Both the position numbers and the translations under genes were made by a program. A DNA stretch of 64,000 nt, from NCBI GenBank assembly GCA_024278215.1, contig JAJRTR010000052.1:1-64000 (forward strand), written 5' to 3'. This DNA is from a bacterium (GTDB taxonomy: Bacteria; UBP15; UBA6099; JAJRTR01). Below the pieces are notes generated by a model. The model had not been told where the DNA came from and did not search any database. It was given only the letters and a program-made list of their open reading frames with translations. Positions 7,284-64,000 of the stretch are shown here, piece by piece; positions within the stretch are counted from its first letter, which is position 1; each line of letters opens with the position of its first letter.

Positions 7284-7367
7284 GGAAACGTGCTTGTGGT
7301 GGTTCACAGTTTGTAACGGATATTCTCCCCGAACGAACAGGGTGAAATCGGAAATATGCTGATAAAT

Positions 7368-41141: not shown

Positions 41142-41175
41142 CTAAAGACTGCCTTTCATTTCTCTCACTCCCCTG

Positions 41176-41312
41176 AGCCAATTGCAAAATTATGTTCGAA
41201 GCGAGGTCGAACGAAATTATTCAGAAGCAAGACGGAGGTGCAAAATCCCCGCAGGCGTACTTGCAGAGTACGTTGAGGAAGATTTTGTGCCGACAACGCT
41301 GCTGTTGACAAT
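41176..41312 (+). repeat. AGCCAATTGCAAAATTATGTTCG...-type repeat, copy 3
   Basis: Extended match to 7368-7502. Confidence 0.85.
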
Positions 41313-41352
41313 TGCAGCCGACCGCAGGCGAATCAGAATTCTGCAATCGGCT
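41307..41352. repeat. AATTGCAGCCGACCGCAG...GAATCAGAATT repeat, copy 2
   Basis: Matches 818-863 and 61204-61251. Confidence 0.75.
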
Positions 41353-41398
41353 TCCCTGTATAAGTCATTTTACCTTCGTCACGACGGCAGCAAGCCAT

Positions 41399-42345: not shown

Positions 42346-42771
42346 TCAACCCGCGTTTATCTTGCGGGCGATGCGCGAGAGGGGATGCCCTTTGGCCTTG
42401 ATGTCGAGCCGGTTGAACCAGCCGAATGGAGTTCGCACGGAATCAAAACCCTGCTCTTTAAGGTTCGCATTCACGGAATCCATAATTTCTATCGCTTTCG
42501 CGGGCGCGCCGAGTTTTGCGAAAAGATGCGCGAAGGGATGCACGACGATGTTGCCTACTTTCAGCGCGCGCGCGTGAGAGGCGATTTCATCGGCAGCTTT
42601 CCCGGCGATTATTTCAGGGTTCTTTTCATCTTTACGCTCGACACACGTGTATACGATCAGCGCTTCTTCGACGTATGTCTCGCCGTCGCCGGGGTCCTCG
42701 ACAATGCCGCCGCGACCCTTTTCCGTTATCGTACATTTGAATGAATCCACGTGCCATATAAGCATTCTCAT
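42346..42771 (-). CDS. Free-standing archaeal-type threonyl-tRNA synthetase editing domain
   Basis: MRMLIWHVDSF...EEALIVYTCVERKDEKNPEIIAGKAADEIASHARALKVGNIVVHPFAHLFAKLGAPAKAIEIM...RTPFGWFNRLDIKAKGHPLSRIARKI follows the archaeal ThrRS N-terminal editing-domain pattern. Confidence 0.85.
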   Translation of the reverse strand: MRMLIWHVDSFKCTITEKGRGGIVEDPGDGETYVEEALIVYTCVERKDEKNPEIIAGKAADEIASHARALKVGNIVVHPFAHLFAKLGAPAKAIEIMDSVNANLKEQGFDSVRTPFGWFNRLDIKAKGHPLSRIARKINAG

Positions 42772-61435: not shown

Positions 61436-61972
61436 TTGAATGAACCGGTAAAGATCGGGTGGTTCAGGAAAGTGAATGAAGATTTTGTATTATGTGTAGT
61501 TCACTGTGTGCGTTTCGATGTTTTCAATAAGGTTCCGGTCGTTCTCCTCAAGGATGTTGAAGGCGACAGGTATCTGCCGATATGGATCGGGATGTTCGAA
61601 GCCACACAGATCGAGATTGCGCTGGAAAAAGTCTCCGTTCCCCGGCCGATGAGCCATGATCTCATGAAATCCATACTGGAAACATTCCACTTGAGCGCGG
61701 AATCGGTGAGGATTCATGATATAATAGATGGAACATTTCACGCGAAGATCATGGTGAAAAACACATCGGGCGCGGACGGCAATGAGCCTGTGGAAGTCGA
61801 CGCGAGGCCAAGTGACGCCATCGCTCTTTCGCTGAGAACCGACACACCGATATATGTCGCGCGAAAAATAATAGACGAAGCGGCGATTGTCGGCAAGGTG
61901 CCGGATGACGATGAAATGCAGAAATTCAAAGAATTCCTTTCCGACATCAAGCCCGGCGACTTCCGGGACTGA
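61436..61972 (+). CDS. Bifunctional nuclease (DUF151) family protein
   Basis: VVLLKDVEGDRYLPIWIGMFEATQIEIAL...RPMSHDLMKSILE...VDARPSDAIALSLRTDTPIYVARKIIDEA. Confidence 0.93.
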   Translation: MNEPVKIGWFRKVNEDFVLCVVHCVRFDVFNKVPVVLLKDVEGDRYLPIWIGMFEATQIEIALEKVSVPRPMSHDLMKSILETFHLSAESVRIHDIIDGTFHAKIMVKNTSGADGNEPVEVDARPSDAIALSLRTDTPIYVARKIIDEAAIVGKVPDDDEMQKFKEFLSDIKPGDFRD

Positions 61973-62033
61973 CTAAAGGCAATCCTGGAAATAGAAAGCT
62001 CAAGTGGACGCTATATAACTCAAGGAGTAGACC

Positions 62034-62228
62034 ATGTCTGTACAACCGGCTTCTTCACCAAATGACTATTATGGAGCATGGGGCGCGGCGCTCGCCCAGA
62101 TACTGTTTAATATGAGAGCGACAGCCGAGGTGCTCGCAGGCACTTATGACGAGATGGAAAAACACCAGGCACGCGCTCGCGAGACTTCATGGGAGCAAAA
62201 CATCTACAGAGTTGACATCCGGATTTAA
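62034..62228 (+). CDS. Small hypothetical protein
   Basis: 64 aa with RBS AAGGAG upstream of ATG; no recognised family. Confidence 0.5.
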   Translation: MSVQPASSPNDYYGAWGAALAQILFNMRATAEVLAGTYDEMEKHQARARETSWEQNIYRVDIRI

Positions 62229-62770
62229 GGGCCGCGAAGGAATATGACCGGAGTCCCCCTTCGGCTCTTTCCATCTCATGCGGCGGCTCCGCGCGCAACA
62301 CATTTTTCGTTCTCCGTTCATTATCAAATTCGGCGGCAGCACTTCTTTATGTCCCAATTGCTTCAATTAAACAGATAAATGTATTACCATAGTGGCTGAA
62401 CGAAAACCCTAAAAGGACTATGGATAAAGGAATAATTGGCGAAAAGAGCAAACGAAGATCGGCAGAAAATATCAGGTACAAATACGAGGAAGACAGTTGT
62501 AATCGCATGTAAGCGATGTATGGCGTTTGAAAAAACGCAATCTTCGCAATAAAATCTTGAAAAGTGGTTGAGCGAAAAACTGATCCGTTAAGCCGGAATG
62601 TGTGAAAAGTGTTCGATATCGAGGCAGACGAAGGAGGCAATGCAACGCATTGTTGACTGAGGATAACGAAGATAGCGGGCAATTTGCGCACATCCCGGCA
62701 GGAGCAGGTTTCCGTTCAACCACTACCATAAATATCTGGCGACAAAATACAGGATTGCGAAGGCTGAACT

Positions 62771-64000
62771 ATGAGACTTTTGATGATACATTCAAATCCG
62801 TTTTCATTCGAGATTACGGACAAAACAAAGTTCGCGGAAGAGATAGTGCCGCCGGTTGTGGACAGGGCTGAAGTGGATAATGCGCTCGTGGTTTTTGCCG
62901 CTGTCGAGCAGCATGATGCCGTCGAGCAGGAAAAAGTTTGCGGGAAAGCTTTCGCTGAAATAAAAAAGACATACGAGAACGTGGGTGCGTCGATAATCGC
63001 TCTGTATCCATATTCACATCTTTCCAACCGGCTCGCGCCGCCCGAAGTGTCACTGCGCCTGTTGAAAAATCTGCGTGGCCTTCTGGAAGACATGCCGCTG
63101 GTTCAGTGTCCGTTCGGATGGTATAAAAAATTCAGCCTCAACGGGATCGGGCACCCTGTGAGCGAATCGAGCAGGGTGATAGAGATCGACGGTCGCCCGC
63201 GGGAACAGAAAGTTATGGGCCGTGGCCGCGAACATCCTGTCGCCGCCATGAACCAGCAGTTCCGCGAGGTCTTCCTCGAACTCGGCCTCGACGAAATGAT
63301 CAATCCGGCGATTATCGACGACTTCCACATCTACAAACAGTACGGCCCGGAAGCGCCACTTATCCTCGACAGGGTTTTCTATATCGCGGGCCTCGACCGG
63401 GCTGATATCGGACTTGGCAAAAGCAAACTCGCAATAATAAATAAAATAGTCCCCGGATTCGACAAAGAGGAACAACTGCAAGCCCTTATGCGCGAATATA
63501 AGGAAGCTCTGATCGAGGCCGACGATTTTCTCGAAGAATTTGCCCTCAGGCTGAAAATCAGCGGCGAACAGGCCGGCGAAATCCTCGAAAAAGCATTCCC
63601 CGAATTCAGGGAATTGACGCCTGTTCCCATGACGCGCACACTGCGCTCGCACATGACAAGCAACTGGTTTCCCGTGCTCCAGCGCATGAGAACTCGATCA
63701 ACGCTGCCCGTGAAACTCTTCTCCGTGGGGTCCCGTTTCAGACGCGAGCAGCGCCAGGATGCGCAACATCTCTACGAAAGCACATCCGCGTCAATTGTTG
63801 TCATGGACAACAATGTTACGATGGAAGACGGCAAAAAGCTGTCATACGACATCCTGAAAAAAATGGGGTTCAAGCGCTGCAAATTCGTAAAGAAAAAAGT
63901 CGCCAGCCGCTACTACGATCCGGAAACGGACACAGAGATATTCGTAAATTATAAAGGAGCACAGATCGAGGTCGGTAATCTTGGCTTCTACGCGCCGGAA
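62771..64000 (+). CDS. Archaeal-type ThrRS editing domain fused to O-phosphoseryl-tRNA synthetase (SepRS)-like catalytic domain (3' truncated by window end)
   Basis: 410 uninterrupted codons from ATG 62771. First ~140 aa MRLLMIHSNPFSFEITDKTKF...IIALYPYSHLSNRLAPPEVSL...QCPFGWYKKFSLNGIGHPVSESSRVI (editing domain). Then HPVAAMNQQFREVFLELGLDEMINPAIIDDFHIYKQYGPEAPLILDRVFYIAGLDRADIG...LRSHMTSNWFPVL...LPVKLFSVGSRFRREQRQDAQHLYESTSASIVVMD...SRYYDPETDTEIFV (SepRS pattern). Confidence 0.85.
   Translation, partial: MRLLMIHSNPFSFEITDKTKFAEEIVPPVVDRAEVDNALVVFAAVEQHDAVEQEKVCGKAFAEIKKTYENVGASIIALYPYSHLSNRLAPPEVSLRLLKNLRGLLEDMPLVQCPFGWYKKFSLNGIGHPVSESSRVIEIDGRPREQKVMGRGREHPVAAMNQQFREVFLELGLDEMINPAIIDDFHIYKQYGPEAPLILDRVFYIAGLDRADIGLGKSKLAIINKIVPGFDKEEQLQALMREYKEALIEADDFLEEFALRLKISGEQAGEILEKAFPEFRELTPVPMTRTLRSHMTSNWFPVLQRMRTRSTLPVKLFSVGSRFRREQRQDAQHLYESTSASIVVMDNNVTMEDGKKLSYDILKKMGFKRCKFVKKKVASRYYDPETDTEIFVNYKGAQIEVGNLGFYAPE

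Follow-up and report, generated by a model that had tools for sequence, protein, structure and literature searches.

A bacterial SepRS with an N-terminal archaeal ThrRS-type editing domain: a further instance of the fusion and its partner genes

Described fusions and the present gene

Fusions of an editing domain (ED) to the phosphoserine (Sep) synthetase SepRS were described in 2017 from bacterium ADurb.Bin236 (OQA87054.1; Mukai et al., 2017, PMC5424206) and in 2022 from Nitrospirae HyVt-268 and Desantisbacteria-like bacteria (PMC8762117). The functional proposal made in both is the one that is also favoured below, and the question why a phosphoserine synthetase should need serine proofreading was raised in 2017 and again in 2022. 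The present analysis concerns an ED::SepRS gene that begins at position 62771 (+) of the window, by which is meant the whole analysed stretch of 64,000 nucleotides (positions 1 to 64,000 of contig JAJRTR010000052.1, assembly GCA_024278215.1, from a bacterium of the GTDB lineage UBP15). An earlier note on this stretch implied that a SepRS carrying a ThrRS editing domain was novel. It is not: because the fusion was published in 2017 (PMC5424206) and 2022 (PMC8762117), the gene is not a new kind but a further instance of a known one.

The published fusions from ADurb.Bin236, HyVt-268 and the Desantisbacteria-like bacteria have the same domain order as the gene in the window, a short linker, no canonical SepRS extension and an intact serine pocket. 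ADurb.Bin236 belongs to the same order as this genome, which comes from a different family within it and adds one more species. From HyVt-268 it differs in that the second SepCysS gene lies in a DUF169 cluster apart from the fusion, whereas in HyVt-268 the cluster is joined to the fusion. Canonical SepRS (TIGR00470; e.g., the enzymes from A. fulgidus, 2du3, and M. jannaschii, 2du7) shares catalytic and C-terminal parts, motifs and fold with the fusion, but starts with a short extension and has no editing domain. Conversely, the archaeal ThrRS editing domain (PF08915; 1y2q, 4rrf, 4rr6) shares domain and pocket residues His83, Tyr120, Lys121 and Glu134 (P. abyssi numbering, which is used throughout), but is here joined to SepRS instead of ThrRS and has Ser for Ala82. 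The stand-alone tRNA-Thr-ED encoded beside archaeal SepCysS genes is the same domain with the same suspected pathway link; it is, however, a separate, unfused gene whose product works in trans (PMC5424206, PMC8762117).

A later experimental test of the fusion was not found in our literature search, which did not reach most subscription journals. Several features of the present genome were not met in the accessible main text of the literature on the fusion, namely the coexistence with CysRS in the order, the two conserved tRNA-Cys isotypes, the presence of two SepCysS and of a ThrRS that is archaeal in type and likewise has an editing domain, the Ser/Thr at position 82, and a stand-alone paralogue with altered pocket. 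The genome offers a complete example with all partners: two SepCysS, a SepCysSn-like open reading frame (ORF), CysRS, ThrRS with editing domain and two tRNA-Cys isotypes. With all partners identified, the serine-proofreading question can therefore be tested with recombinant parts. A chemical question is raised as well, namely how such a domain could remove Ser yet spare Cys on the same tRNA.

The fusion gene, its two domains and its relatives

The gene was said in the earlier note to run off the window, and indeed the ORF at 62771-64000 (+) is open at the window edge. Only the window border truncates it; the contig (G000:C22, 66302 bases) extends 2.3 kb past the window, and on it the frame continues to a stop at contig position 64684, so that the complete protein has 637 residues. 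The genome assembly consists of 207 contigs and is 95% complete, and absences from it rest on profile searches.

Residues 1-137 (62771..63181, +) are an archaeal ThrRS editing domain of the DTD fold, as had been proposed. They match PF08915 (tRNA-Thr_ED) over profile positions 1-137 with 127.1 bits (cut-off 30.2; E 6.4e-37), and in a search of the PDB the N-terminal domains of archaeal ThrRS (4rrf, 1y2q) match the same residues. ThrRS models match this N-terminal domain only, the ThrRS catalytic domain not being part of the protein. The pocket residues are found in YPYSHLS (63005..63025, +), a strand with the conserved His83 and with Ser at the Ala82 position, in FGWYK (63113..63127, +) with Tyr120 and Lys121, and in GHPVSES (63149..63169, +) with Glu134; all four are retained in all complete fusions. 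In archaeal domains Lys121 positions the catalytic water, and its replacement by Met abolishes deacylation, whereas Tyr120 and Glu134 are replaceable (PMC4491819). Position 82 is Ser in the fusions of this order and Thr in HyVt-268, whereas the ThrRS domains used for comparison have Ala or Val there.

In the fusion the canonical N-terminal extension of SepRS is replaced by the editing domain, which is followed by a linker (residues 138-150; 63182..63220, +; pLDDT <50 at 140-150). The remainder (63221..64000, +, within the window, and on to residue 636 on the contig) is SepRS, which bears out the earlier identification. Residues 151-636 match TIGR00470 (sepS) with 440.2 bits (cut-off 380.65), SepRS chains head a PDB sequence search (E 1e-109), and the best fold matches of an AlphaFold2 model (mean pLDDT 87) are SepRS from A. 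fulgidus and M. jannaschii. The pTM of this model is 0.61, which makes the relative placing of the two domains too uncertain for measuring distances. The protein contains the motifs IYKQYGPEA, LDRVFYIAGLDRADIG, LRSHMTSNWF, FRREQRQDAQHLY and YYDPETDTEIF, the last-but-one of these regions including the class II motif FRREQR (63737..63754, +). The Sep-pocket motifs TLRSHMTS (63638..63661, +; invariant versus M. jannaschii SepRS), SAS and N423-x-G425 are invariant versus 28 relatives or M. jannaschii SepRS. The Pfam model SepRS_C (PF18006) scores 22.9 bits against a gathering score of 26.9 and is weak in HyVt-268, too. Another class II family, which had been named as a possibility for this part, can be rejected from the profile scores: the best rival profiles, PheRS-alpha (84.8 bits) and PylRS (38.1 bits), are both far under their own cut-offs.

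Of the 56 SepRS loci that were retrieved from the genome collection, those in USMO_maxbin.112 and ADurb.Bin236 (64% identity) and the one in HyVt-268 (44%) encode the fusion; in RA.bin91, the C-terminal end of a fused editing domain is seen on a contig that stops inside the domain. The HyVt-268 assembly yielded a single editing domain. Unfused SepRS begin with the usual extension wherever the contig shows the start. USMO_maxbin.112, ADurb.Bin236 and RA.bin91 appear to belong to the order of this genome, in which SepRS was found over the cut-off in all three genomes that are at least 90% complete and in one of the four less complete ones, where absence means little. In a SepRS tree (short search, no bootstrap) the fused proteins cluster together (SH-aLRT 92) next to SepRS of Patescibacteria, inside a bacterial group (98). 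The editing domain is too short for its tree to reveal the origin of the fused copies. The four complete ones group weakly (support 69/60), and descent from the genome's own ThrRS, while not the preferred placement, is not rejected in the approximately unbiased (AU) test (p 0.28).

Partner genes and tRNAs

The earlier note had asked for SepCysS and CysRS to be looked for, and both are there. Profile searches revealed two SepCysS genes. SepCysS1 (contig C65, 517 bits) overlaps with an ORF of 65 residues that closely resembles an ORF at the same place in two relatives and that we take for the SepCysSn reported for ADurb.Bin236 (PMC5424206). SepCysS2 (contig C121, 339 bits) misses its cut-off of 365 but passes the one set for PRK09331, a broader subfamily model. 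A standard CysRS is encoded on contig C16 (411 bits, cut-off 340), which indicates that the Sep route runs beside direct charging with Cys and does not replace it. The genome's ThrRS, which is of the archaeal type, is encoded separately and likewise possesses an intact editing domain.

No operon partner adjoining the fusion gene is evident in this genome, the upstream gene encoding a bifunctional-nuclease-domain protein, and in Rfam nothing matched 61960-62800 at E ≤ 1, be it a T-box or another known RNA element. In HyVt-268 genes for a DUF169 protein and SepCysS are directly followed by the fusion. On contig C121 (L088:3146-7687) genes for a MoeB/ThiF-like protein, a DUF169 protein, SepCysS2 and a threonine-synthase-like enzyme stand in a row. 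Because the SepCysS of HyVt-268 shares 58% identity with SepCysS2 (36% with SepCysS1) and the DUF169 protein of HyVt-268 shares 50% with that of C121, the C121 cluster looks like the remainder of a HyVt-268-type operon from which the fusion gene would have split off.

Two tRNA-Cys genes were found with ARAGORN (L057:1419-1492 and L083:201-273), both with A37 and U73. U73 is the base on which the editing domain is reported to depend (PMC8762117), and it is also present in the genes for tRNA-Thr (all three) and tRNA-Gly (all four). Six relatives were checked (loci L179-L193), whose tRNA-Cys were found with a looser pattern, the length of the D-loop differing, and the order keeps both isotypes, each with A37 and U73. 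Type A is kept across the order and lies in several genomes beside tRNA-Val(GAC); type B is solitary and more variable and occurs in one to three copies, often two or three. A comparison of the isotypes with the tRNA-Cys beside SepRS of Patescibacteria did not reveal the isotype used by SepRS. Beside the normal set, a low-scoring extra tRNA-Gly(TCC) of 71 nt (29 bits) was noted on contig C29 (L086:201-271).

Probable proofreading of Ser-tRNA-Cys and alternative readings

The best-supported reading, which we consider probable though well short of assured, is that of a Sep-charging enzyme that proofreads Ser-tRNA-Cys in cis; a built-in deacylase, for example against Ser- or Thr-charged tRNA, had been suggested in the earlier note. 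The SepRS part would charge tRNA-Cys with Sep, and SepCysS would convert the Sep-tRNA-Cys to Cys-tRNA-Cys. The N-terminal domain would act as an aminoacyl-tRNA deacylase of the kind found in archaeal ThrRS, with specificity for serine. Its place beside the synthetic site would allow the tRNA-Cys just charged there to swing its CCA end to the editing site and lose a wrong serine before it reaches the ribosome. The Ser-tRNA-Cys might stem, e.g., from dephosphorylation of Sep-tRNA-Cys, a source suggested in 2017 (PMC5424206). This reading is supported by the SepRS profile score and fold match and because, as can be seen directly in the sequences, the gene is complete, the Sep-pocket motifs are intact, the editing pocket including Lys121 is kept, SepCysS is present (and in HyVt-268 directly precedes the fusion), both tRNA-Cys carry U73, and the fusion is conserved.

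Some points weigh against it. No activity of the fusion is reported in the literature searched. The need for editing is not obvious, since free-standing SepRS works elsewhere without such a domain, and the same question was put in PMC8762117. The domain would have to leave Cys-tRNA-Cys intact, a molecule that is distinguished from Ser-tRNA-Cys by one atom. Close to the scissile bond, the fusions have Ser or Thr in place of Ala82, so that the specificity of the fused domain may differ from that of ThrRS, and since U73 is shared by tRNA-Thr and tRNA-Gly, substrates besides tRNA-Cys are conceivable.

Indeed, these last two observations are what speaks for an active editing domain with another main substrate, be it Ser-tRNA-Thr or other U73-containing tRNAs in trans, or another wrong amino acid, such as Ala or Thr, on tRNA-Cys. 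We regard this as unlikely, because the archaeal-type ThrRS of the genome already has an intact editing domain of its own and because fusion to SepRS would tie the domain to tRNA-Cys, a restriction that is argued for in PMC8762117.

It is also doubtful, and we would put little weight on it, that the domain no longer proofreads and instead grips the acceptor stem or offers a docking surface in place of the canonical SepRS extension, since no complete fusion, even at 44% identity, has lost any of the pocket residues. A relaxed pocket, by contrast, is exemplified in the same window by a stand-alone paralogue of the fused domain (42346..42771, -; 141 residues; PF08915 124.9 bits), in which Tyr120 is replaced by Phe, Lys121 by Asn and Glu134 by Arg.

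Very improbable is a synthetase repurposed to another amino acid or tRNA and thus SepRS-like rather than SepRS, a "repurposed specificity" having been the other possibility considered in the earlier note. Degenerate SepRS-like proteins with changed pockets do occur in Thermoplasmata and Deltaproteobacteria (PMC8762117), and with CysRS in the genome the Sep route is not the sole source of Cys-tRNA. Those proteins differ from the present one, whose Sep pocket has kept its motifs, Asn-x-Gly among them; the curated equivalog cut-off is passed, too, and SepCysS is present. That the gene is an artefact of assembly, a ThrRS editing domain having been spliced onto SepRS at ~63200, was supported solely by the caution of the earlier note and can be dismissed, because three genomes that were assembled independently have the fusion as well and a fourth shows its end, GC and GC3 are alike in both halves of the gene (0.50/0.58 versus 0.52/0.61) with no step at the junction, and the fused domain differs from the domain of the genome's own ThrRS.

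In the domain tree, the stand-alone paralogue forms a group (support 100/99) with copies that are likewise unfused, one from a relative (L044) and one from Lokiarchaeota BC3 (L169). Its substrate or activity has probably changed, because the lost Lys is needed in the archaeal enzyme; that it shares a pathway with the fusion is only a candidate link. One may speculate, with low expectation of being right, that the order has two parallel routes to Cys-tRNA, in which CysRS would charge one conserved tRNA-Cys isotype, while the other would be left to SepCysS and the proofreading SepRS. Editing of Ser-tRNA-Cys would then guard one dedicated tRNA, and the altered stand-alone domain would have taken on a further substrate for editing in trans.

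Two other features of the genome were noted. A dispersed repeat of ~180 bases (window 41175-41353, with partial copies near 7367, 34524, 811 and 61207) is found in many of the loci sampled from the genome and can fold as one long imperfect hairpin (z -4.4); it looks like a small non-coding mobile element. Beyond the window, L002:4370-5302 holds the first part of a gene for a secreted protein whose repeats are almost identical to one another (GDAMTGDLNVGANVLVAGDITAATGTISA); the contig ends within this gene.
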